64,000 nucleotides of DNA. Source: an uncultured Verrucomicrobiota bacterium (lineage in GTDB: Bacteria > Verrucomicrobiota > Verrucomicrobiia > Opitutales > Opitutaceae). The number at the start of each line of letters is the position of its first letter. Within the stretch, counting starts at the first letter, position 1. The notes under the pieces are model-generated. The model searched no databases. It saw only the letters and a program-made list of their open reading frames with translations, and was not told where the DNA came from. The stretch is from the NCBI GenBank assembly GCA_903876795.1, contig CAIRBK010000083.1, positions 1 to 64,000 of the forward strand, in the 5' to 3' direction. A program made the position numbers and the translations under genes. Positions 4,929-36,153 of this stretch are shown piece after piece.

Positions 4929-5606
4929 TTACTCGAACGGCTTGAGTTCGGCGTCCGTCCAAGGCTTGGAGCGGGCCTTCTCCGCAGCCAATATCTCCTT
5001 CACTTTTTCCTTGGTAACCACCGGGGCCGAATTGCCCCACTCCTGACGGATGTAGGTCAGAACTTGGGAGATTTTTTCTTCGTTCCAATTATAGCCACCA
5101 CCCGGAACTTTGCCGAAGGCGGGCATCGCTCCGTTGTAGGTGTTGCCTTTGACCACGATGGGGCCGTTGAGGCCGTGCAGTAGGATTCGGATCAAAGCCT
5201 CTTCTTTGCCAAGCACCTGCTCGGAGCCGGCCAAGGGCGGGTAAACTCCCGCGACACCCAAACCGGTGTTTTGGTGGCAGGCGGCGCAGACTTGTTGATA
5301 AGATTTTTTGCCGGCGGCGATGACCTGCTCGGGGGTGAGTTCCTTGGCGCCAGTGCCGGCGGCGGTCTTCGGGTCGAAGCGCTGGTCATACACGGTCGGG
5401 CTGAAGCCCGCTCGATAGTGAACGACGTAGACACTCGTCACAAAGATCATCGTCGACACGAAGCCGAGGAGGAAGAGCGGCATCGTTTTGAATCCTTCCT
5501 TGGGCTCGGGCTTCTTGGCGACCAGCTCGGCGTGAACTTGCTGGAGGCTCTCGTCGGATGCGCCGGACTGACCGGCGGAAAGATTATTGTTCTGATCGGC
5601 GCTCAT
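4929..5606 (-). CDS. Monohaem membrane-anchored cytochrome c (CcoP-like position in act operon)
   Basis: A 225-residue protein has a hydrophilic N-terminus, one membrane helix (about 42-65, FLLGFVSTMIFVTSVYVVHY), then a cytochrome c domain. That domain has one haem motif CAACH (about residue 110) and a likely axial Met in NGAMPAFG. It is the last gene of the minus-strand act operon and overlaps the preceding gene by 4 bp (ATGA). By position it is the third subunit of a CcoN/O/P-like trio, but it has one haem where classical CcoP has two. It probably takes electrons from the CcoO-like protein or from complex III and faces the periplasm. A specific name is not warranted. Confidence 0.8.
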   Translation of the reverse strand: MSADQNNNLSAGQSGASDESLQQVHAELVAKKPEPKEGFKTMPLFLLGFVSTMIFVTSVYVVHYRAGFSPTVYDQRFDPKTAAGTGAKELTPEQVIAAGKKSYQQVCAACHQNTGLGVAGVYPPLAGSEQVLGKEEALIRILLHGLNGPIVVKGNTYNGAMPAFGKVPGGGYNWNEEKISQVLTYIRQEWGNSAPVVTKEKVKEILAAEKARSKPWTDAELKPFE

Positions 5607-6295
5607 TTATGACCCTCCTGCTTGGCTCCGGCCTTGGGAGCGGGCGCGGTGTAAATATTCTTGGTCTCCGGGTAGGCGTAGGTGTCCTTCAGGCTTAACA
5701 GGTAGGCGACCAGGGCCTCGCCACGCGAGGTGGGCACCACTTCATAACCGGCGGCGGGGGCCAAGGCTCCCGAAAGTTTCAGGGCCTTGGACGATCCCTG
5801 GCCGATGATCGGCTGCGTCTTGAACAAGAACGCATAGCGGGGCATGTTGGACTCCCTCACCACGGAAGTGGGGGCGTAGAGATATTTGAAGAGCCACTCG
5901 GCGTTATGCTCGGTGCCATCGGCGTTTTTACGCGCGGCAAAATTACGGAGATCCGGACCGACACGCTGCGAGCCAAGGAGAACACGCTCATCGCGAAGGT
6001 AGTCACGGGCAACACTCTGTCGCTCGCCCCAGCCTCGGCCTCGTTCACCGAAATCGGCGCCAAAGCCCTCACGGCGCACCTGCTGCGTGTGGCAGGCCAC
6101 GCAGCCGAGATCTTGGTAAACCAGCTTGCCTTGAGCGGCGAGGCCGGGAAGAGGCTGCGGGAAGGCCTTGCCCTCGTCTTCATCGACATGGGTCGTGAAG
6201 GCGCCATAGGTCAGCTGGTTGGTCAGCACAAGACCGACAAATGAGAACGAAAGGGCGCAGAAAATACCGAGGAATAGAAAGGGAGCGGGTTTCAT
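5603..6295 (-). CDS. CcoO-like monohaem cytochrome c subunit
   Basis: A 230-residue protein has one N-terminal membrane helix (about 3-27) and a CcoO-type cytochrome c domain. The haem site is GCVACHTQQVRREGFG, followed by RVGPDLRNFAAR and a Met ligand candidate in ESNMPRYAFLF, in the order and spacing seen in CcoO/FixO. It overlaps both neighbours by 4 bp and so is translationally coupled to the CcoN-like gene upstream. In true cbb3 oxidases CcoO relays electrons to CcoN. Here the partner CcoN-like subunit has no haem ligands, so the haem c can only pass electrons elsewhere, for example to a soluble cytochrome or another oxidase. Confidence 0.82.
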   Translation of the reverse strand: MKPAPFLFLGIFCALSFSFVGLVLTNQLTYGAFTTHVDEDEGKAFPQPLPGLAAQGKLVYQDLGCVACHTQQVRREGFGADFGERGRGWGERQSVARDYLRDERVLLGSQRVGPDLRNFAARKNADGTEHNAEWLFKYLYAPTSVVRESNMPRYAFLFKTQPIIGQGSSKALKLSGALAPAAGYEVVPTSRGEALVAYLLSLKDTYAYPETKNIYTAPAPKAGAKQEGHK

Positions 6296-7761
6296 CGGGA
6301 GACCTCCGGTTGAGCGGCCAGGAGAACCTTGACCGAGCGCACGCTCGGGGCGGAGGCGCGGGCAAGGGTCCAGAAGAAGTTGAGGGCAAAGGCGATTTGG
6401 CCGATGGCGAGGACGAGCAGCCCGACATTGGCGGAGAAGAGGTAAGGCAGCGATGCCTGCGTGATACCGGCAAAGGGCACCTTGGCATCGGCCAAAAGGG
6501 CACCCTGAGTAAGTCCACCGAGTGCAAGTGAACCCACCAGCAAGATGACGCCAAGAGCAGAGGCAACAAAGTGCACGCCGGCCAGCGGGACGCTGGCCCA
6601 GTCGCTATTCAGGACGCGCGGCACGATATAGTAAAGTGCTCCGAAGACCACCATGCTGAAAAAACCGTAGAGGCCCAACTGGCCTTCGGCGGCGGTGAAG
6701 TATGTGAACTGCGTGAGGGAGGCGAACCCCTGGGTCGCCCCGGCGATCAAGGCGAGCAGCCACAAGGCAAACGCAACCGCCCCGAAGACAATGAAGCGCA
6801 GGGTTAAACTGCCTTTAAGCGCTGACCAGTGGCCGGACAGCGTTCCGAAGACATTCATGCCGATCACCACGAGCGGGACAATCATCATGAAACTGGCGGC
6901 CGCACCAACAGTCTGCACCCAGGCGGGCACCGGTCCTCCCAGCAGGCGGGAGAGACCGGCCCAGCTGCCAAAAACCACGAGCCACCAAAATGCCAGCGAG
7001 GCCAGATAGTAGTTGGAAACCGGTTTCAAGAGCAACTTGGGAAGGAAGTAATAAACCGCAGCCAGCGCGACGGAAGCGAACCAGAGCAAGAAAAGGTTGG
7101 ACGTGAACCAGACGTGGACGATCGACTGTACGGTGCCGCGAACCGGAGCGAACACCAAGAGCACTTGCGCGACAGAATAGATCCAAGGAAATGCAAACAG
7201 CGCGGCAAAGAGATACCATTGAGAGGCGTAGATCTCAGAAGAGCGACCGGAACGATAGACAACCAGCGACCAAGCGCCAATCAAGGCGTAGGCGACCAGC
7301 AACAGGGGAGCGGCGAAGCCAGGCATCTCCAGCCACTCGATGGAGGTCGAGAAACCGAGGATTATCCCACCGACGCCTAGGGTGACGCCGACATTCCAGA
7401 AAGCTGCCCCGAGCAACAAAACACCGGAGCCGGGAAGCATCCCGCGAGAGAGGCGGGCCATGAGCCAGAGACTCACCGCGAAGGCGGCATTAAAACCCCA
7501 GCCGTAAATAAAGGCATTGCTCTGGGCCGGCTGGATGCGGCCGTATGTCATGAACTCGCAGGTATCGAGAAATCCGGGGGTGTGTAACTTCCAAGCGGCA
7601 ATGATGCCGAGGACACTGGCCGCCAACAGCCAGATCAAGGCGGAGCTGATGAGGACCGTAAGCGGCGTGCGCAGCGAGGCGTCGATGACGGAAGCTTCGT
7701 GCGGCTGCGAAGACGGACGTTCAGGTGTCAGATCTGATGGGAGGCTGGAATCGGTGGCCAT
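6292..7761 (-). CDS. CcoN paralogue lacking all haem and copper ligands
   Basis: A 489-residue polytopic membrane protein with about 12 hydrophobic helices and clear cbb3 subunit I features: GRIQPAQSNAFIYGWGFN, VYYFLPK and ALNFFWTLARA. Compared with the true CcoN in this window, every ligand His is replaced. The low-spin haem b ligands (H61, H347 there) are Q80 and Q361. The CuB ligands (H207, H257, H258) are S221, S271 and R272. The high-spin haem ligand (H345) is E359. The fold is thus kept without cofactors, so it cannot reduce O2 or NO. The gene sits in the act operon, coupled to a CcoO-like gene. It is inferred to be a structural scaffold or proton/ion-path module for its cytochrome partners. 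Relaxed-selection decay is unlikely given intact length and hydrophobicity. Confidence 0.85.
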   Translation of the reverse strand: MATDSSLPSDLTPERPSSQPHEASVIDASLRTPLTVLISSALIWLLAASVLGIIAAWKLHTPGFLDTCEFMTYGRIQPAQSNAFIYGWGFNAAFAVSLWLMARLSRGMLPGSGVLLLGAAFWNVGVTLGVGGIILGFSTSIEWLEMPGFAAPLLLVAYALIGAWSLVVYRSGRSSEIYASQWYLFAALFAFPWIYSVAQVLLVFAPVRGTVQSIVHVWFTSNLFLLWFASVALAAVYYFLPKLLLKPVSNYYLASLAFWWLVVFGSWAGLSRLLGGPVPAWVQTVGAAASFMMIVPLVVIGMNVFGTLSGHWSALKGSLTLRFIVFGAVAFALWLLALIAGATQGFASLTQFTYFTAAEGQLGLYGFFSMVVFGALYYIVPRVLNSDWASVPLAGVHFVASALGVILLVGSLALGGLTQGALLADAKVPFAGITQASLPYLFSANVGLLVLAIGQIAFALNFFWTLARASAPSVRSVKVLLAAQPEVSR

Positions 7762-7835
7762 CGTGGGTTTGTGCTCGATACAAGCAGTGGGACGGGCCGG
7801 CGGACGGATTAACTCCGCAAACGCCGGCGGTCACA

Positions 7836-8141
7836 TCACTTCTTGGAGTTGATCTCCTTGATCGTGAGTTTGACGGCTTCGTCGATCGGGATGCGGACAA
7901 CGCCGGCACCTTGGTCAACCCAGGCGTAGGTCGTGGCGGCAGCCTTTTCCTTCGCACGGAGCTCGGTCAAAGCGGCCTTGCGCTGCTCAGGTGTGCGCAC
8001 GCCGTCCGGCAAAGGGGCGGGCTTCTTCGGCAAGTAGGCGATGAAGACGATCAACGCGAAGATCGCGAAGCCACCAATGGCGGCAAGGACCGTGAGAAGA
8101 GATCCGTTGGACGAGACGGGAGTTTGCGTGGAATCACTCAT
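7836..8141 (-). CDS. Small single-helix membrane protein of the act operon
   Basis: A 101-residue protein has one membrane helix (about 15-37) followed by a charged region and a C-terminal motif YAWVDQGAGVVRIPIDEAVKL. I recall similar W-V-D-x-x-x-G-V-V-R-I-P-I-D tails in small proteins next to ACIII and haem-copper oxidase genes in other phyla, but I cannot name the family. It overlaps the 3' end of actF by 8 bp and precedes the CcoN-like gene by 74 bp. It may help assemble or stabilise the complex. Confidence 0.75.
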   Translation of the reverse strand: MSDSTQTPVSSNGSLLTVLAAIGGFAIFALIVFIAYLPKKPAPLPDGVRTPEQRKAALTELRAKEKAAATTYAWVDQGAGVVRIPIDEAVKLTIKEINSKK

Positions 8142-9411
8142 GGTGCGTGAGACATTCTTTGATGCGCGGATCGCGGATCGGGATGAGCTTGGTCATGGCG
8201 AAGCTCTTGAAATAGGCCCAGAAAAAGACCCCGCCGACACCGATAACCGAGGTGACCGTCCAGAGGAGGCTGATTGAGAGGAACGGCTTAGGCTCGCCAG
8301 TTGAGTAGTCCTTAACGGCGGGAGCGATGTTATAGATCATATCGACCAGGATGATCAGGAGTATCCAAATCACGATGGGCTTGATACGGCTGTGAACGAT
8401 CTTGTTCTTGTACGAGAGAAGATACAGGAAAGGCAGCAGGAAATGCCCGAAGAGCAGGAGCATTCCCACATATTTCCACTGGCTGGGTTCACCGGCTTTG
8501 GTGATTTCGCGGAGATTATACCAAAAGGTTTCCTCGGGGATGTTGGCATTCCAGATCAGGAAATACTGGGAGAACGTGATGTAGGCCCAGAACACGGTGA
8601 AGGCAAAGACGAGCATGCCGACCGAGTGGAGGTGGTTGGTATTCAAAACTCCCTTGAGATCGCCGCGAGCGTAAAGCCAGAGGAGCAGCAAGACACCGAT
8701 GGAGAGAGCGCCGCGCACGCAATTTGCGAAGAACCATACGCCGAACATCGTCGAAAACCAGTGGTAATCGAGGCTCTTGACCCAGTAAATTGAGGCGAGC
8801 GTGAGCGTGATCGCGCCGAGCGCGAGACCGAATGCGGCGGTCTTCCGGTTCATGAAGGTCCACTTGAGATCGCCGTCGGCATCCTGGGTAAAGGAGGCCT
8901 TGCGGAGGCGGGCGGACAGCCAGATCCACACGATGAAGCACAGCGCGGTCATCACGGTGAACATCGGGAGATTAAGGAAGGCCGACTTTTTCACATAGAG
9001 CGGATCATGGCCAACCGTGTGGCCGCTGGCCAAAACGTAGTCGGGATTCATCCACTTCCAGATGAGATCGTGCGAGCCGGTCCATGAAACGATCACGAGA
9101 GGCGCGAAGAGCAACGCCAGCCAGGGGAAAGCAGCGAGGCCGTGTTCAAACTGGCGGCGGAGCACCACCGACCATGAGGCGTCGAGGATGTGGTGAATCA
9201 TCACCAGCATCAACATGCCGATGGCAATGGCCGTCCAGAAGGTCAAGCCGACCAACCAGGAGAAGGCAACGATCTTGCCTCCAGAGACAAAGAGACCGAT
9301 GAGCGTCAGGCCGATGCCGATGGCACCGATTCCGAGTGCCTTGGTGGCGCCGGACGACGTGGTGGATTCAGGGGAAAGAGCCGCGTGCGCGGTGGCTGCG
9401 TGGGTGCTCAT
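8134..9411 (-). CDS. actF: Alternative complex III subunit ActF
   Basis: A 425-residue polytopic membrane protein with about 10 helices. Conserved features include IHHILDASWSVVLRRQFE near residue 75, AFTVFWAYITFSQYFLIWNANIPEET (shown in part) and a HFLLPFLYLL helix. ActF is an NrfD/ActC-related subunit of quinol:cytochrome c oxidoreductase and contributes to the membrane arm thought to move protons. The start overlaps the stop of actE by 4 bp. The gene order A-B-C-D-E-F matches characterised ACIII clusters. Confidence 0.9.
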   Translation of the reverse strand: MSTHAATAHAALSPESTTSSGATKALGIGAIGIGLTLIGLFVSGGKIVAFSWLVGLTFWTAIAIGMLMLVMIHHILDASWSVVLRRQFEHGLAAFPWLALLFAPLVIVSWTGSHDLIWKWMNPDYVLASGHTVGHDPLYVKKSAFLNLPMFTVMTALCFIVWIWLSARLRKASFTQDADGDLKWTFMNRKTAAFGLALGAITLTLASIYWVKSLDYHWFSTMFGVWFFANCVRGALSIGVLLLLWLYARGDLKGVLNTNHLHSVGMLVFAFTVFWAYITFSQYFLIWNANIPEETFWYNLREITKAGEPSQWKYVGMLLLFGHFLLPFLYLLSYKNKIVHSRIKPIVIWILLIILVDMIYNIAPAVKDYSTGEPKPFLSISLLWTVTSVIGVGGVFFWAYFKSFAMTKLIPIRDPRIKECLTHHE

Positions 9412-10055
9412 TTGATACCAAGCTGCGATTTATGTTCAGCGGGGACGTCAGCCACGGTGGCGTGGGCGGCACGCTGGAGGGCGCGGACATAGGCGATGAC
9501 CGCCCAGCGATCCTGAGCGGCGAGTTTCTCCGCGTAGGAAAGCATGTTGCCCTTGCCGTGGGTGATGGTGTTAAAAAGGTCGCCTTCCGCGATGTTGCGG
9601 AGACGCTCGTCGTGATAAGTGGGGGTGGCTCCCATACCGTATTGCTTGGTGATGCCATTGCCATCACCCACCGCGCCGTGGCAAGGCGCGCAGTAAATTG
9701 TATATTTCTCCTGACCGCGCTCGAGGAACTTGGCGTCCACGGTGATGGCAGAAGGGTAACCCTTGATCCATGAGCCCTTGGCGTCCTTGCCCTCGAAGAG
9801 AGCGGGGTCGGCTTTCAGGAAGTTTGCGTCGGCAGCATCGGACATGCGACCAAAGGCAACCGTGCCGGCCGGGCGGGGACGGTCAACGCGGCCATCGGCA
9901 AAGAACTTGGACTCCGCCTGAGGCTTGTATTTAGCCTGGTGATCCATGTCCGGGAAAATCTCGAGCGGCGTGCGCGTCGAGAGGGAGCCGCGGAATCCGA
10001 GTATGGAAACCGCCAGCACCACAATGAAGAAGACAGTGAGATAAACGTAACGCAT
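9408..10055 (-). CDS. actE: Alternative complex III monohaem cytochrome c subunit ActE
   Basis: A 215-residue protein has an N-terminal membrane anchor (about 2-20; no lipobox Cys seen) and one cytochrome c domain with haem motif CAPCHGAVGDGNG and a likely Met ligand in GNMLSYAEKL. In ACIII this haem is the exit side of the chain that starts with quinol oxidation and passes through ActB/ActA. It begins 3 bp after actD ends and overlaps actF. Confidence 0.88.
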   Translation of the reverse strand: MRYVYLTVFFIVVLAVSILGFRGSLSTRTPLEIFPDMDHQAKYKPQAESKFFADGRVDRPRPAGTVAFGRMSDAADANFLKADPALFEGKDAKGSWIKGYPSAITVDAKFLERGQEKYTIYCAPCHGAVGDGNGITKQYGMGATPTYHDERLRNIAEGDLFNTITHGKGNMLSYAEKLAAQDRWAVIAYVRALQRAAHATVADVPAEHKSQLGIK

Positions 10056-10058
10056 GGC

Positions 10059-10592
10059 TCAGGCTTCCAGCTCCTGGATTTCTTTGCCCCCGACCTTCTC
10101 GAGCAAGGCCTTGGTCTGGGCTAGGTTGAATTTAGGGTCGCTGGACTCGATCACGATGTGAAACTTGTCGTCCATGCCGGAGAGGATCTTGCTGCTCTTG
10201 AGAACCGGGTGGTAATGCATCGGGAGACCGTTGAGGAACAACATGCCCCCGATGGTGGCGAACGCGGTGAAAAGAATGGTGAGTTCGTAGGCCACCGGGA
10301 AGGCGAACAGCGGGCTGAAGTAGGGTTTGCCGCCTACAACCAGCGGATAGCTGATGTAGCTCGTGTAGAAGATCAGGGACATGCCGGTGGTAAAACCGAG
10401 GATGCCGCCCACGAGGGAAAATTTCGGCACGTTGGAGCGTTTCACGCCCATGGCCTTGTCGAGGCCGTGGACGGGGAACGGCGTGATGCAGTCCCAGTTT
10501 TTGTAGCCGGCGTCGCGAACCTGCTCCGCCGCGTGATAAACGCTCGGAGTGGTGTCAAAGGTGGCGATCAGGCCGTAAGGTTTGGCAGACAT
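10059..10592 (-). CDS. actD: Alternative complex III subunit ActD (DUF3341)
   Basis: A 177-residue protein has two membrane helices (about 60-80 and 95-118) and the DUF3341 signature: GLIATFDTTPSVYHAAEQVRD at the N-terminus, then PFPVHGLDKAMG. It has no cofactor motif. DUF3341 is the Pfam name of ActD. It packs against ActC in known ACIII structures. It lies 24 bp downstream of actC in the same operon. Confidence 0.9.
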   Translation of the reverse strand: MSAKPYGLIATFDTTPSVYHAAEQVRDAGYKNWDCITPFPVHGLDKAMGVKRSNVPKFSLVGGILGFTTGMSLIFYTSYISYPLVVGGKPYFSPLFAFPVAYELTILFTAFATIGGMLFLNGLPMHYHPVLKSSKILSGMDDKFHIVIESSDPKFNLAQTKALLEKVGGKEIQELEA

Positions 10593-10616
10593 GGTCGTAA
10601 GGTTGTCGGCTGGGTC

Positions 10617-12044
10617 TTAGTGGTGGTCGTGACCGTGGGCGTCGGCCTGCGGCATGACGGACTTGATTTCCGCCATAGGCATGACCGGCAGGAAGCGGAT
10701 GAACAGCAGGAAGAGCACGCTGAACACGCCGAAGGTGCCGAAGAAGGTGAATATCTCGACGATCGAAGGACTGTAGTAACCCCACGAAGACGGCAGAAAA
10801 TCGCGGGCGAGCGAAGTAACGATAATCACAAAGCGCTCGAACCACATGCCGACGTTGACGAAGATGGAGAGAATCCACACGAGGGCGGTGTTTTGGCGGA
10901 CCTTCTTAAACCAGAAGAACTGCGGCGTGATGACGTTGCAACTGATCATGATCCAGTAGGCCCAAGCGTAGTGGCCGAATGCGCGGTTGATGAACGCAAA
11001 CCCTTCGTTGGGGTTGGCGCCATACCAGGCGATGAAGAACTCCATGCCGTAGGCGTAACCCACGATGGTGCCCGTCGCCAAAACGATCTTACACATACAG
11101 TCGATGTGATACTGGGTAATCAGGTCCTGCATGCCGTAAATGGCGCGCAACGGGAGCATGAGCGTGAGCACCATGCCGAAGCCCGAGAAGATGGCGCCTG
11201 CCACGAAGTAAGGAGGGAAGATCGTCGTATGCCAGCCCGGAAGGAGCGACACCGCGAAGTCGAACGACACGATCGTATGCACGGAGAGCACAAGCGGCGT
11301 GGAGATACCTGCGAGGATGAGGTAGGCCATCTCGTAGTTGCTCCAGTGGCGGTTGGAACCGCGCCAGCCGAGGGCGAACAGGCCGTAGCAGAACGAGCGG
11401 ACCTTGTTGCCGGCCTTGAAGAAGCGGTCGCGGAGCACGGCCAAATCGGGCAACAGACCGACATACCAGAAAAGCACGGACACGGTTCCGTAAGTCGACA
11501 CGGCAAAAACGTCCCACTCCAGCGGTGAACGGTAGTTTTGCCAGATCACGTTGCTGTTCGGGATGGGGAACAAATACCAGGCGAACCAGACGCGACCGAC
11601 ATGGAAGACCGGGAAGATACCGGCGCAGACCACGGCGAAAATCGTCATGGCCTCGGCCGCGCGATTGATGGACGTGCGCCATTTCTGGCGCAGCAAGCAC
11701 AAGATCGCGGAAATCAGCGTGCCGGCGTGGCCGATGCCGATCCAGAACACGAAGTTGACGATGTCCCAAGCCCAGTCGACCGGGTTGGCGTGGCCCCAGA
11801 CACCGACGCCCGTCGAAACGAGGTAGGTGATGCCGGCGACCGTGAAGGACGCCACGCAGCAGGCGAGAACGAAGCAAACCCACCACCAGGTGGGAGTCTT
11901 GCCCTCGATGATGCCGGAGATCTTGTCCGTCACCCAGCCGAAGCTCCGGTTGTTTTCAACCAGAGTGGCGCGTGGGAACGGGGTAGGATTGACCTCGTTA
12001 AGGATGGCCGGCTGAGCGGCGGATGGATGAGCGTGTGCGGCCAT
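10617..12044 (-). CDS. actC: Alternative complex III membrane subunit ActC (NrfD family)
   Basis: A 475-residue NrfD/PsrC-type membrane protein with about 10 helices. Landmarks are [21 protein letters not shown] near the start, [18 protein letters not shown], and [25 protein letters not shown] in part. ActC is thought to bind quinol and to form the proton half-channel next to ActB. The start codon overlaps the actB stop (TAATG). The C-terminus is His-rich (AHGHDHH). Confidence 0.92.
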
Positions 12045-15000
12045 TAGCTGAGTCCTCCGAAGAGGTTGTTACCACGAAGGAAGGAGTGTTCGCCCTTCGG
12101 TTCGCCGTGCTTGGCGGGGGCGGAATGCCCTTCGCCGTGCCCGGTGTCGTGACCGTGGTGCGGGTTGTTCTTCTTTTCGTATTCGGTGCGGCTGAGCGGG
12201 AGAGCGGCGTAGTCGGGCATCGCCGGATTCGGGTTGCGGAGCTTGCCGAGATAGGTGGTGCGGGGACGGATGTTGAGGTAGCCCAGGAGCGCGTAGTCCT
12301 GTTCGAGGGCCTTGGCCTTCGAGACGGCGCTGGTCGGATCCTTGATGTTGCCGAAGACCACGGCATCGGCGGGGCAGGCCTGTTGGCAGGCGACCTTGAA
12401 TGTGCCATCGGGGATCTCGACATTCGCGGACGCTCCGGCCTTCACCTTCTGCTTGATCTTGGCCTGCTGGATGCGTTGCACGCAATAGGTGCACTTCTCC
12501 ATCACGCCGCGCATACGCACGGTGACGTCCGGGTTTTTGACCATCTTGACCAATTCCGGCATACCCGACTTGCCGAGCGGGCCCATGTAGAGCTCGTCGG
12601 TGGAACGCTTGTTCCAGTCGAAGAAGTTGAAGCGGCGAACCTTGTAAGGGCAGTTATTGGCGCAGTAGCGCGTTCCGATACAGCGGTTGTAGGCCATCGT
12701 GTTGAGGCCTTCCTCGTCGTGGACGGTGGCGTTGACCGGGCACACGATTTCGCAGGGGGCTAGTTCGCAATGCTGGCAGGCAATCGGCTGAAGGGAAACC
12801 TGGGGATCCTCGGGGATGACCTTGTTGCCCTCGCCACCGAACGCGGCGGACTCGATGTTGCCGTCGGAGTAGTAGCGGTCGAGGCGAATCCAGTGCATCT
12901 CGCGGCCGCGGAGGACTTGGTCCTTGCCGACGATCGGGATGTTGTTTTCGGCTTGGCAGGCGATGACGCAGGCGTTGCAGCCGATGCAGGTATTCAAGTC
13001 GATCGACATGCCCCACTGGTGGGTACCGGTCAGATCGGGATGTTCGTAAAGCGACTGACCGCGAGGCGTCTCGACGGCAATCAGGGCCTTGCGCTTGGCA
13101 CGATCCTCGGGGCTGAGCTTGGCCAGCTCCGTCAGGGAGTTCTCCTCGCCCAGGTTTGACGGGGCGTGGGACTCGATGCCGAATTTGTTTACGAAGCCGA
13201 GATCGGTAGAGCCGTCCTCCTTGTAGTTTTCCTCGCGGACGATTTCGCGGCCTTCCATAGACCAGTGCTCCTGGGTGTTGGCGAGTGCGTAAATTTCGTC
13301 GGTGACCTTGAGCGTCGCGCCGGTGGCAAAACCCAGGGTGTTGGTGGTGCGCAGCGGGTAGAAGTTATGGCCCACGCCCTTGCCCACCCGACCGGAAATG
13401 GTTCGCCCATAACCTAGCGGGAGCACGATGGTGAAATTGGAGAGACCGGGCTGGATGTGGAGCGGGCCGCGGACGGTGACACCGTTAAGGGTCACTTCGC
13501 CGATGAAGGCCTGTTCCTGGCCCTGCTTGAGGTTGGCGTTCTCCTTGCGGGCGACCTGGAGAAGCGAGCCGGCAGGATCGATACCGAGGTGCTTGGCAAG
13601 CTTCGGGCTGACGAGGATGGCGTTATCCCACGAGATCTTGGTGATCGGATCGGGGCACTCCTGCAGCCAGCCGTTGTTGGCGAAGCGGCCGTCATCGACC
13701 TTGGCGTCAAAGGTAAAGCGAACCTCTAGATTAGTCTCGGAGAGCGCGGTGAACGCGGGGGCCAGCGCAAAGAGTGGCTGTATACCGACGGCGCTGAAAC
13801 TGACCTTGACCTTCTTGTAGGCGGAACCCTCCAGCACTCCGTCGTGAAGGAACTGGCGGAACACGTGGTCGGAGTTACCCGAGCCTATGATTCCGGTGAT
13901 GGTGTTGTAAACCAGCGTGTAAGGATCGGTTACAGTGTCGCCGGCGATACGGGCGAGGACCTCTATCTCGGTGAGTCCGTTGAAAAGCGGCAGGATCATC
14001 GGCTGGACCGGCACGATCATGCCATCAGCCGTCCGGGCGTCGCCCCAGGACTCAAGATAGTGGGCGGCCGGGATGTGCGCGCCGGAGACGGCGGACGTCT
14101 CGTCCGCATAGTAACCGTAACGAACGACCTCGGGCACGCTCTTCAGCAGATCGGCAAAAACGAGATCGGCCGGGGCGTCGTAGGCGGGATTGCCGCCGAG
14201 GACCACGAGGGTCTTGACGGAGCCGGCCTTGATGGCGGACGCGAGGGTCGAAATGGTCGCTGCGGTGTTGACGGGGACCTCGACGAAATCGACGGTCTTG
14301 CCCACGTTCCCGAGGACGACGTTAAGTGCGTACGCGATGGCGTGGACCTGCGGGGGCAGGTGGCTGCCGGCAACGATGACGCTCTCGCCCTTGTGGGCGA
14401 GGAGGTCGGCGGCGCACGCGTCGAGCCACTTGTCCATGTCCTTGAACGCAAGGCCCTGAGCCAGAGGAGCAAAGGTGGCGTCGCCGGTGATCTTGCCGGC
14501 AAGGGCTGCTGCGAAGGCCAGCATGTGGCTGCTGGCGAGGCGCAGGCGGTGATCGGCCATGGAGCCGACCAGCGTGAAGCTGCTCTCGATCGCGTAGAGT
14601 CGGTTCATCGGGTCGTCTTTCTTGACGACCTTGCGGGCCTTGGAGAACTCGCGGGCGTAGTAGAGCGAGTGGGCCTCGGACTGGAAGAAATCGGCGTCGA
14701 TGGCGACGACGCGCTTGGCCTTGGCGAACTGATAGATGGGCTTGACGCTCTGGCCAAAGGCGGCCTGGGCGGCGGAGGCGGACGCCTCGTCGGTGGACGC
14801 CTCGTATTCGGCCCAGACGGACTTGGGAAACTTTTTCTTGAGCTTGGCGACAAGCGCGGCGCGGGTCGGCGAACTGGACTGGCCGGCGAGGAAGGCGAGG
14901 CCGGCGCCTTGAGTGGCGACGGAATCGGTGCCGATCTTGGCCAGCATATCCTGGACGGCAGCCGGAGTGACGGCGGCACCCTTCACGGTGGCGACAGTGG

Positions 15001-15463
15001 CGCGGTCCGGATCGTAGAGATCAAGAACGGAGGCTTGGACAAAGGCGTTGGAGGCACCGCCATAGGGCGAGTAGCTCGGGTTGCCCTCGATCTTGGTCGG
15101 ACGACTCTCGTGCGTCTCGGCGAGGATCGGGACGGCGCCCTTGCGGGTCGGCATGGCCGAGGCGAAAAAAAGCGGGAGACCGGAGATCGCGTCTTCGACA
15201 GACTTGCCATAGGGCAGAATGTGTTTCTCCGGGCGGCGGCAACCGGCGGCCAGACCGACGCCACCGAGGGCGAAGGAGGCAGCCATGAGTTTGAAGAACT
15301 GGCGGCGATCCACGCCATTCAGGTTCGAGGCGTCGGCGGGGAACTCGCGTTCGACCTGGGCCTTGAAACCGGGCGTGGCGGCGAGTTCGTCGAGGCTGCG
15401 CCAGTATTTAGGACCGGTCAGTTCGCGTTCGGACGGAGCGGGATGTTCAAATGTGCGTTTCAT
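12044..15463 (-). CDS. actB: Alternative complex III iron-sulfur/molybdopterin-like subunit ActB
   Basis: A 1139-residue protein. The N-terminus has a Tat-type signal ([11 protein letters not shown]) followed by a Cys (GLAAGC) that could be lipidated. The first two thirds resemble molybdopterin oxidoreductases, known in ActB to lack the cofactor. The last third is a four-cluster ferredoxin domain with Cys motifs [37 protein letters not shown] and CTYCV...CQQAC. It conducts electrons from the quinol site towards the haem subunits on the outer face of the membrane. It starts 8 bp after actA ends. The length and domain order are normal for the family. Confidence 0.93.
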
Positions 15464-15471
15464 CAGCGATA

Positions 15472-16128
15472 TCAGCGATGGCAGCCAGAGCAGCTTTGCG
15501 GAGGTTTGATATTCCAGTCGTGGACGAACTTTTTGCCGTCACGCAGCTGGCCTTCGACACCCTCGGGGTGTTTCCAGTCGAGGTTGGTGACGAGCTTCGG
15601 ATCACGAACAAATTTTTCGGGCTCACGGTGGCACTCCAAGCAGAAGCCCATGGACAGGGACTTGGCTTGGTGGACGACGTCCATCTCGTTGATCTTGCCG
15701 TGACACTCCACGCAGGAGACGCCGCGGGCGATGTGGACGGAGTGATTGAAATAAACGTAATCGGGAGCCTGGTGAATCTTCACCCACGGAACGGGATCGC
15801 CGGAAGCGTAGCTGTCGCGGACGACCTGGAGCAGAGGGCTGTCGGTCTTGACCTGATTGTGGCAGTTCATGCACGTCTGCGCGGCAGGCACGGAGGACGT
15901 GGCGCTCTTGTCCACGCCAACGTGGCAATAACGGCAGTCGATGCCGAGCTGGCCGGCGTGCAGCGCATGGCTGAACGGCACAGGCTGCACCGGGGCGTAA
16001 CCAACGTTGATGTAACTGTTGGTCGCGTAGTAAGTCGTTCCAGCCGTGACGAGGCCGCCGAGCACGAACACCAGAATGATGATCTGCAGCGGCAACTTGT
16101 TGGCCGATTTGGGAAAGAGGTTGGACAT
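15472..16128 (-). CDS. actA: Alternative complex III pentahaem cytochrome c subunit ActA
   Basis: A 218-residue protein has an N-terminal membrane helix (about 12-32) and five CxxCH haem motifs: CRYCH, CMNCH, CVECH, CLECH and CSGCH. Five haems are the usual number for ActA. It sits at the head of the act gene series and passes electrons from the ActB clusters to ActE or an external acceptor. Confidence 0.93.
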   Translation of the reverse strand: MSNLFPKSANKLPLQIIILVFVLGGLVTAGTTYYATNSYINVGYAPVQPVPFSHALHAGQLGIDCRYCHVGVDKSATSSVPAAQTCMNCHNQVKTDSPLLQVVRDSYASGDPVPWVKIHQAPDYVYFNHSVHIARGVSCVECHGKINEMDVVHQAKSLSMGFCLECHREPEKFVRDPKLVTNLDWKHPEGVEGQLRDGKKFVHDWNIKPPQSCSGCHR

Positions 16129-33837: not shown

Positions 33838-36153
33838 TTACTCGCGGCCCGCTACTGTCTTCAACGGCGCGACGGTCTCGTATTTTCCGAGTTTCTGCAG
33901 GTAGGCGATGAGCGCGACGATCTCCCGGTCGGGGGCGACGTAGGCGCCGGCGGTCTTGAGGTCGGCCGCGATGGTCTTTTCCTGGGTCTCGACCAGGACG
34001 GCCAGTTCGCCCTCCTTGTACTCGGGATAGGGCACGCCGAGGAGGCGTTGCACGGCGAGCTTCGACGGCAGCGCGGCCACGTCGGTCTTCTGCGTGATCA
34101 GCCACGGGTAGTTGGGCATGTTGGAACCGGGCGAGACGTCGCGGGGATTTTCCATGTGCCGGTAGTGCCAGATATTCGGATACTTTCCGCCAAGGCGGGC
34201 CAGGTCGGGTCCGGTGCGCCGGGAGCCCCACTGGAACGGGTGGTCGTAGATCGACTCGCCGAGGCGCGAGTAGTCGCCGTAACGCAACACGTCGGGAACG
34301 AGCGTGCGGATCATCTGCGAGTGGCAGTTGTAGCAGCCCTCGCGGATAAAGATGTCGCGGCCGGCAAGTTCGAGCGGCGTGTAGGGCAGCTGACGACGGC
34401 CCTCGATGTTGTCGGGACGGTTCACCAGCGTGGTCGGGATGATCTGGATCAGGCCGCCGGCGGCGACCGCCAGGAATGTAAGGAGGGTGAACGGAAGCGC
34501 GTTGAGCAGCAGCCGGTCATACCAGGCGGCCCAGCGGCTTGTCCGCGAGCCAAAGTGAACCCAGGCCAGGAGGATGACCAGGGCGGTGCCGAAAAGGCCG
34601 CCGAGCTTGAGCAGGTCACCGCCAAACATCCAGGCGCAGGCGAAGGCGGTGCCGAAGACGGAGAACAGCACGGGCGGGTTAAAGAGCATCGAGCCGAAGC
34701 CGAGTTTTTCCTCTTCATGCACATCGGCGGTGAACACCTCGACGGTGCCGTTGACCGGCTGCGCGCCGCGCACGGTGCGGTAGAGGTTGTAGGCCAGAAG
34801 GAACCAGCCGACGAGGTAGAGCGTGCCGCCGAAGACCCGGAAGAGCATCATCGGGCGGATGGCGTTGAGCGTGTCGAGGAAGTTGGGGTAGGCCAGCACC
34901 GTGCCGTTGTCGGTCGTGGCGTTGAGCATGAGGCCCTGGGTGATGCCCGAGGTCCACATGGCGGCGACGTAGAGAAGGATGCCGACCGTCCCGAGCCAGA
35001 AGTGAAGATTGGCCAGCGACGTGGAGTGCAGGGGCTTGTTCCAGAGACGCGGCAGCAACCAATAGATCATGCCGGCGGCCATGAAGCCGTTCCAGCCGAG
35101 GGCTCCGGCGTGGACATGGCCGATGATCCAGTCGGTGTAGTGGCCGAGGGCGTTGACGGATTTGATCGAAAGCAGCGGCCCCTCGAAAGTCGCCATGCCG
35201 TAGAAGGTGACGGCGGCGGCGAAGAATTTAAGGACGGGGTCGGTGCGGAGTTTGTGCCACGCGCCGCGCAGGGTGAGCAGGCCGTTCAACATGCCGCCCC
35301 ACGACGGGGCCCAGAGCATCAGGGAGAACGTCATCCCGAGCGCCTGCAGCCAGCCGGGCAGCGCGGTGTTGAGCAGGTGGTGCGGTCCGGCCCAGATGTA
35401 GACGAAGACCAGCGACCAGAAGTGGATCACCGAAAGGCGATACGAATACACCGGACGCTCGGCCGCCTTCGGCACGAAGTAATACATGATGCCGAGGATC
35501 GGCGTGGTCAGGAAGAACGCCACGGCGTTGTGGCCGTACCACCACTGCACCAGCGCGTCCTGCACGCCGGCGAAAACCGGATACGAGTGCAGCAGGCTCG
35601 TCGGGATGGAGAGGTGGTTGACGATGTAGAGCATCGCCACGGTGATGATCGTGCCGATGTAGAACCAGATCGCGACGTACAGCGCGGGCTCGCGGCGACG
35701 GGCGAGCGTCCAGAAAAAGTTCACCGCAAAAACCACCCAGATGAACGCCACCGCGATGTTGATGGGCCAGATCAGCTCGGCGTATTCCTTGCCGCGCGAG
35801 AAACCCAGCGGGAGCGTGATCGCAGCCGCCACGATGATGAGCTGCCAGCCCCAGAAGTGGAGCTGCGAAAGGAAATCGCTGGCGAGCCGCGCCTTCACCA
35901 ACCGCTGTGTGGAGTAGTAAACGCCGGCAAACATCATGTTGCCCACGAAGGCGAAGATGACCGCGTTGGTGTGCAGCGGGCGCAGGCGCCCGAAAGTCAG
36001 CCACGGCAGGTCGAAATTGAGCCGCCAGTAGTTGAGTTGTGACGCGACGAAGACGCCCACCAGCATGCCCACCGCACCCCAGAGGACGCAGGCGAGCAGG
36101 AACTGGCGGACGATGCCGTCGTTGTATTCGATCGTGATTTTGCGGTCGGACAT
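33838..36153 (-). CDS. ccoN-ccoO: Fused cbb3 oxidase subunits I and II (CcoNO)
   Basis: A 771-residue fusion. The CcoN part (about 1-470) has all ligands at standard positions: H61 in RPLHTNAVIF, H207 in YGHNAV, H257-H258 in WAGPHHLL, and H345/H347 in GHVHAG. Two linker helices follow, then the CcoO part has haem motif CYNCHSQMIRTL and SNMPNYPWL with the Met ligand. It is the catalytic core of a proton-pumping, high-affinity oxygen reductase. ATG 36153 precedes MSDRKITIEYND. This is an intact counterpart to the ligand-less paralogue at 6292-7761. Confidence 0.93.
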   Translation of the reverse strand: MSDRKITIEYNDGIVRQFLLACVLWGAVGMLVGVFVASQLNYWRLNFDLPWLTFGRLRPLHTNAVIFAFVGNMMFAGVYYSTQRLVKARLASDFLSQLHFWGWQLIIVAAAITLPLGFSRGKEYAELIWPINIAVAFIWVVFAVNFFWTLARRREPALYVAIWFYIGTIITVAMLYIVNHLSIPTSLLHSYPVFAGVQDALVQWWYGHNAVAFFLTTPILGIMYYFVPKAAERPVYSYRLSVIHFWSLVFVYIWAGPHHLLNTALPGWLQALGMTFSLMLWAPSWGGMLNGLLTLRGAWHKLRTDPVLKFFAAAVTFYGMATFEGPLLSIKSVNALGHYTDWIIGHVHAGALGWNGFMAAGMIYWLLPRLWNKPLHSTSLANLHFWLGTVGILLYVAAMWTSGITQGLMLNATTDNGTVLAYPNFLDTLNAIRPMMLFRVFGGTLYLVGWFLLAYNLYRTVRGAQPVNGTVEVFTADVHEEEKLGFGSMLFNPPVLFSVFGTAFACAWMFGGDLLKLGGLFGTALVILLAWVHFGSRTSRWAAWYDRLLLNALPFTLLTFLAVAAGGLIQIIPTTLVNRPDNIEGRRQLPYTPLELAGRDIFIREGCYNCHSQMIRTLVPDVLRYGDYSRLGESIYDHPFQWGSRRTGPDLARLGGKYPNIWHYRHMENPRDVSPGSNMPNYPWLITQKTDVAALPSKLAVQRLLGVPYPEYKEGELAVLVETQEKTIAADLKTAGAYVAPDREIVALIAYLQKLGKYETVAPLKTVAGRE

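Follow-up and report, generated by a model that had tools for sequence, protein, structure and literature searches.

A CcoN-fold protein without metal ligands in ACIII operons of Verrucomicrobiia

In Flavobacterium johnsoniae and Rhodothermus marinus, the genes for the alternative complex III (ACIII) adjoin those for an aa3-type oxidase, and the sections consulted of three reports describe ACIII-aa3/caa3 supercomplexes in which electrons are handed over via cytochrome c domains (PMC8552683, PMC5928083, PMC8361435). A sixth haem on a mobile domain of ActA has been proposed to reach aa3 in Flavobacterium, and ActE has been proposed as the donor in Rhodothermus, the ActA of which does not contain this sixth haem (PMC8552683, section consulted). 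According to PMC5615132, its supplement deals with the genes for ACIII and oxidases in freshwater Verrucomicrobia.

In genomes, subunit I of haem-copper oxidases is recognised by its fold, and where it occurs, oxygen respiration is assumed. Here we describe a widespread branch that has this fold but the sequences of which offer no site for O2 chemistry; the automatic annotation as "cbb3 oxidase" is therefore misleading. Ligand-bearing and ligand-free forms occupy the same operon slot, even inside a single genus group, which amounts to a natural experiment. It raises the questions of what use the body of an oxidase is to complex III when the chemistry is gone, and in which order an enzyme surrenders its metals. 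Searches in the full text of open-access articles yielded no description of a ligand-free CcoN in an act operon, and the protein is not described in the sections consulted of PMC8407424, PMC5492636, PMC13274419, PMC8361435, PMC8026999, PMC5615132, PMC8552683 and PMC5928083.

The act operon of the window and the N protein

The starting point was a stretch of 64,000 nucleotides from an uncultured member of the Opitutaceae (contig CAIRBK010000083.1, positions 1 to 64,000), which is called the window in the following. It contains a complete actABCDEF set at 8134-16128, and the gene order on the minus strand is actA, actB, actC, actD, actE, actF, X, N, O, P (Table 1). The end of N and the start of O share 4 bases, as do the end of O and the start of P. 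The fetched loci of relatives show the same order, ActF-N-O-P, except where a contig ends or a copy is broken, and except for one locus in which no O was detected. Of 163 loci with ActF as well as N, 151 contain a homologue of X. In two loci of one family from another order (L187, L188), the gene in the slot between ActF and N encodes a membrane helix plus a cytochrome c domain, and a similar gene was seen in L189, L191, L192, and L194; it looks like an X with an added haem domain.

Table 1 Positions in the window of the operon genes, the former ligand sites of N, and the comparator gene
Feature	Position	Strand	Basis
actA, pentahaem cytochrome c	15472..16128	minus	five CxxCH in translation, profile search
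actB (B1-B2 fused), iron-sulphur subunit	12044..15463	minus	profile search
actC, NrfD family	10617..12044	minus	profile search
actD	10059..10592	minus	Pfam ActD 8.5e-63
actE, mono-haem cytochrome c	9408..10055	minus	profile search
actF	8134..9411	minus	no Pfam match; named from place in act operon and conservation with operon
X, 101 aa, one apparent membrane helix, between actF and N	7836..8141	minus	no Pfam match
N, 489-aa protein with CcoN fold, metal ligands absent	6292..7761	minus	ORF and translation, Pfam, predicted structure
Q80, low-spin haem b ligand position (His 61 of in-window CcoN)	7522..7524	minus	two alignments
S221, CuB ligand position	7099..7101	minus	two alignments
S271-R272, two CuB ligand positions	6946..6951	minus	two alignments
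G265, cross-link tyrosine position	6967..6969	minus	alignment and column analysis
E359, high-spin haem b3 ligand position	6685..6687	minus	two alignments
Q361, second low-spin haem b ligand position	6679..6681	minus	two alignments
O, CcoO/FixO-like mono-haem cytochrome c, one CxxCH	5603..6295	minus	FixO 7e-17
P, one apparent membrane helix and one cytochrome c domain (one CxxCH)	4929..5606	minus	profile search
Canonical CcoN-CcoO fusion, all six histidines	33838..36153	minus	PF00115 and PF02433, alignment

An earlier note on this DNA had reported a full-length frame for N. This was confirmed for the minus strand, on which the frame is open over its 489 codons; the plus-strand reading contains internal stops. 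Pfam COX1 matches the protein at 1.9e-39, which makes N a COX1/CcoN homologue, and a sequence search of the PDB gave five matches with E values up to 0.01, each to a chain of cytochrome c oxidase and most of them designated cbb3. The score with the curated ccoN profile TIGR00780, 136 bits, is far below the cut-off of 583 bits.

For comparison, N was aligned with the CcoN part of the canonical fusion in the window, to which it is 26% identical over 473 columns (BLASTP). All six metal-ligand histidines are present in the fusion and none in N, and the six replacements listed in the earlier note (Q80, S221, S271-R272, E359, Q361) were reproduced in BLASTP as well as in an independent multiple alignment; the latter also places no histidine at any of these positions. 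Two details had to be revised. Counted from Met, the ligands of the in-window CcoN are residues 61, 208, 258, 259, 346, and 348, so that five of the six earlier numbers were one too low. Of the two motifs thought to be common to both proteins, YYF-x-PK genuinely is, whereas ALNFFWTLARA is C-terminal in N and aligned with LAYNLYRTVRG, the similar NFFWTLARR of CcoN being located in an earlier helix.

An AlphaFold model of N was obtained with a mean pLDDT of 88.0 and a pTM of 0.89, based on 46 aligned sequences. The best PDB match in Foldseek was a cbb3 oxidase (3mk7_D, E 9.1e-20, TM-score 0.86 by query length). VIA-align gave Z values of 50.6 for 8smr_E and 50.5 for 3mk7_D, with 450-452 residues superimposed at 1.9-2.0 A (450 residues at 2.0 A for 3mk7_D alone). 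The whole twelve-helix fold of CcoN/COX1 is thus predicted to be kept. Nitric oxide reductase (NorB) was considered as the closest kin and rejected, because 4xyd_A reached a Z value of only 42.9 compared with 50.5 for cbb3, and the PDB sequence matches comprised none but cytochrome c oxidase.

Recurrent ligand loss under purifying selection

Ligands were counted in 145 distinct N homologues (143 clusters at 97% identity), pooled from all sets. One of the sets consisted of the best 80 of 373 confirmed relatives and therefore leans towards the close kin of the window. Rows shorter than about 380-400 aa, or scoring <240 bits in the first set, were left out of the counts, e.g. L052 and a split copy in L051. 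Rows from genomes of the same class were added to the fixed alignment, N having been examined in 20 of the 26 such genomes with a match (19 fetched, one as L183).

The ligand count is bimodal. All six histidines are present in 70 homologues, five in two, and four in one, which leaves 72 with three or fewer (three in 2, two in 7, one in 42, none in 21). The cross-link tyrosine is kept in 70 of 70 intact proteins and in only two of the remaining 75. A match to N was found in 49 of the 56 nearest genomes. It is ligand-poor in 31 of these and intact in 16, has five histidines in G003, and is a fragment in G044. Even the genus group of the window is mixed: N is intact in G005-G007 and has five histidines in G003, and no ligand is left in the window and in G002, G004, and G008-G012. 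Outside the order of the window, 18 of the 19 same-class loci fetched were ligand-poor, L201 being intact. In the alignment of homologues that the earlier note had suggested, ligand loss is common to the clade of the window and recurs across Verrucomicrobiia. Many relatives keep six ligands in the same operon slot, which indicates that the change was recent and repeated.

A few homologues represent partial forms. One copper-ligand position is changed in L012, one plus the tyrosine in L081, and two plus the tyrosine in L100. In L182 and L183 (G066, G210), only the two low-spin haem b histidines are left (HNQRYHS), so that these proteins are possible single-haem intermediates. Taken together, the partial forms suggest an order of metal loss. 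A second copy of the act-N-O-P operon was observed in G002 (L051), with actE, actF, and N each broken into two frames; it is either a decaying duplicate or a sequencing error.

To estimate how often ligands were lost, the intact state was mapped onto trees. In the ActB+ActC tree of 78 operons it requires 12 changes, eight of which are forced by well-supported branches, and with 96 operons the values are 15 and at least eight. A single origin, with the 38 ligand-poor of the 78 rows as one ActB+ActC clade, was rejected (p-AU 2.7e-56, the group having been named after the tree was seen and the test assuming the model). The clade of the window was placed as sister to the intact L066 with a support of 98 in the tree of 78 operons, but of only 80 with 96 operons. 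The N tree, calculated without the ligand columns, needs five changes, four of them forced. In it, a single supported clade unites 49 rows, nearly all ligand-poor and the rest partly intact, and separate cases stand apart from this clade. Eight changes, four of them forced, are needed in the O tree, which groups 26 of the ligand-poor or partly intact rows. Because of these two groupings, the number of independent losses may be nearer to four than to 15. The clade in the N tree may reflect long-branch pull, gene exchange, or the truer history, and a range is given for this reason, with about four losses as the robust minimum and 8-15 as the likely number. The changes are read as losses, since the regaining of six exact ligands would be implausible.

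N is under purifying selection. The dN/dS values (Nei-Gojobori) were 0.130-0.155 for five pairs involving the window, at dS values of 1.18-1.41, which are near saturation, and 0.124 at a dS of 0.28 for the close ligand-free pair L058-L059. They are similar to those of ActF, O, and P and higher than that of ActC. Among 95 ligand-poor pairs with >68% identity, 71 had dS values of 0.02-1.5, and their dN/dS had a median of 0.20 and a maximum of 0.48; the corresponding values for 253 intact pairs were 0.21 and 0.56. A ratio near 1, which the earlier note had named as a sign of decay, was therefore not seen, all values being far below it.

The changes in ligand-poor N are concentrated in the pocket. 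Of 128 columns that are conserved in intact N, 49 are kept and 43 are abandoned in 51 ligand-poor proteins. The abandoned columns include the six ligands and the cross-link tyrosine as well as R89, W235, H369, and R470 (numbering of the CcoN-CcoO fusion), which we take to be pocket residues.

Partner proteins and possible roles of N

The two cytochromes encoded downstream of N have retained their haem c motifs in ligand-poor loci, in 46 of 47 cases for O and likewise for P. The two exceptions are L153, where the ORF is split, and L140, where a run of bases is unknown. The proposal of the earlier note that N anchors two cytochromes c fits this conserved N-O-P trio with its persisting haem motifs. 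In the ligand-poor loci from outside the Opitutales (L184-L200), N-O-P is followed by a same-strand gene for CoxA, i.e. an aa3-type oxidase, in 15 of 17 cases, at a distance of ≤200 bases from P in 14 and after CoxB in L198. Within the stretches fetched, L186 has CoxB but no CoxA, and L194 has neither. All 20 CoxA sequences aligned possess the six histidines and the tyrosine. CoxA also follows P in L134 and L142, in which N is intact. Among the loci of the Opitutales, CoxA was found to adjoin N only in L053 (G025); there, at 7195-10191 on the minus strand, it lies beside a second, six-histidine copy of N, around which no other act genes were detected in the fetched stretch.

The genome of the window encodes an aa3-type oxidase on another contig, a CcoNO, and a cytochrome bd. 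No PF00032 cytochrome b was found in it, so that ACIII appears to be its only complex III. Another COX1-family gene is absent from none of the 54 ligand-poor genomes, compared with three of the 32 intact ones (G040, G045, G190), which is the expected direction, but the association is weak (one-sided p 0.048, for rows that are related and not independent).

We think it slightly more probable than the opposite that a cbb3-like oxidase linked to ACIII repeatedly became a metal-free scaffold, which holds O and P on ACIII and aids the passage of electrons to a separate oxidase. The observations at its base are the ligand loss, its recurrence, the purifying selection, the conserved operon, the retained cytochromes, and the intact oxidases elsewhere in the same genomes. 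N would derive from the catalytic subunit of a cbb3-like oxidase whose evolution took place inside the ACIII operon. Most probably, this linked oxidase was no longer needed in lineages in which the electrons went to another oxidase. In the lineage of the window, and repeatedly elsewhere in Verrucomicrobiia, N would then have given up the copper site as well as the two haem sites, and the twelve-helix body would have been retained because it holds O and P on ACIII. In this view, a metal-free N may dock both cytochromes onto ACIII, and their two haems c would serve as the exit route from ActA/ActE to an intact oxidase. The recipient would be the aa3 type next door in most of the non-Opitutales loci examined, and the aa3 type and the CcoNO encoded elsewhere in the genome in the organism of the window. 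The location of the aa3-type gene on another contig in this genome, and the restriction of an adjoining CoxA to L053 in the Opitutales, count against such a bridge.

For Verrucomicrobiia as a whole, the proposal would be that an ancestral, ACIII-bound cbb3-like oxidase was converted many times (at least eight, based on the ActB+ActC tree) to a metal-free respiratory subunit of a three-part machine, consisting of ACIII, a haem-less body with two cytochromes c, and an aa3-type oxidase. We would expect this equally to hold or to fail. If true, the haem-copper oxidase fold has a structural, electron-wiring role that is separable from catalysis, and the route to it would be displayed by surviving intermediates, i.e. 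L012, L081, and L100 for changes at the copper site and the tyrosine, and L182/L183 for the stage with only the low-spin haem pair.

Four other explanations were weighed against the scaffold. It is hardly credible that N is a pseudogene that is decaying and about to be lost. The split genes in the duplicate operon of G002 and the faster evolution of N than of ActC would be compatible with decay, but the frames of ligand-poor N are full length (467-612 aa from stop to stop in 51 rows), the four closest ligand-poor pairs have dN/dS values of 0.08-0.13, and the similarity of the ratio to those of ActF, O, and P also argues against it; for the window itself, the open frame together with the dN/dS of 0.130-0.155 rules against this candidate. 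The reuse of a scaffold instead of decay, as the earlier note had put it, is hence supported as far as sequence goes, i.e. by the missing ligand histidines, the low dN/dS, and the recurrent loss. Even with few ligands left, the pocket might accommodate a cofactor by other means, and N might bind haem or another cofactor, e.g. a quinone, via new pocket ligands and have a redox function of its own. Q80, E359, and Q361 of the window are polar, and three of the 73 homologues with four or fewer histidines, e.g. L182 and L183, have both axial haem b histidines, showing that a single-haem stage exists. The replacements at the haem b positions vary by clade (A/W, A/Y, F/F, Q/Q), however, so that there is no constant new ligand, and other pocket residues were lost together with the ligands, which makes this explanation unlikely.

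A further suggestion of the earlier note, a proton path to complex III, was weakened by the column analysis. A proton-path or energy-coupling subunit that reuses the oxidase channel would be in keeping with a multi-helix membrane body under selection beside a quinol-oxidising complex. Yet positions S272, T247, and Y349 of CcoNO, which are presumably K-channel residues, have been given up in ligand-poor rows: of 51 such rows, 43 have Ala in place of S272, only 11 still have T247, and 34 have Phe in place of Y349. The canonical Glu of CcoN (column of CcoNO Glu355) is absent in 51 of 51 ligand-poor proteins and also in 60 of 60 intact ones, so that the ligand-bearing, ACIII-linked N is itself an unusual C-type oxidase. 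We regard a proton path as very unlikely. Assembly or regulatory partnerships are common among pseudoenzymes, and N might pair with or tune genuine oxidases without being a stable part of ACIII, as would be consistent with the additional COX1-family gene in 54 of 54 ligand-poor genomes. Against this, N remains associated with O and P in the act operon, not with ccoNO, and a ligand-bearing form fills the same slot in close relatives; we consider a partner of this kind quite unlikely.

Comparison with described systems

N shares its fold, its sequence kinship, and its CcoO-like and cytochrome c neighbours with CcoN of cbb3 (C-family) oxidases. It differs from CcoN in the loss of the six ligands and the cross-link tyrosine and in its location in an act operon, and P has a single haem motif, whereas CcoP is a di-haem protein. 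The intact N proteins of Geminisphaera colitermitum TAV2 (L103) and Verrucomicrobia bacterium IMCC26134 (L087) occupy the same slot at 47-50% identity; they have kept the six histidines and the tyrosine, and the canonical Glu is absent in both forms.

ActB1 is also a former enzyme scaffold that is kept in ACIII without a catalytic metal, although its fold is another one and N is a membrane subunit. To our knowledge, ActB1 contains no molybdenum cofactor, which is consistent with the haems and Fe-S clusters listed for the complex. Its assignment as a molybdoenzyme-like domain within ACIII is based on homology (PMC5928083, section consulted). The nearest printed case that we have seen is that of the Nitrospinae bd-like oxidases, in which metal ligands are likewise replaced within a conserved electron-transfer cluster, but only two residues are changed and the protein family is a different one (PMC8026999, section consulted).

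The Flavobacterium and Rhodothermus supercomplexes resemble the Verrucomicrobiia loci in the adjacency of ACIII and aa3-type oxidase genes, but no CcoN-fold subunit between the two complexes is described in the sections consulted (PMC8552683, PMC5928083, PMC8361435). The ActA of the window has five haem motifs, and O and P could do the job that is assigned to the sixth haem of ActA in Flavobacterium or to ActE in Rhodothermus.
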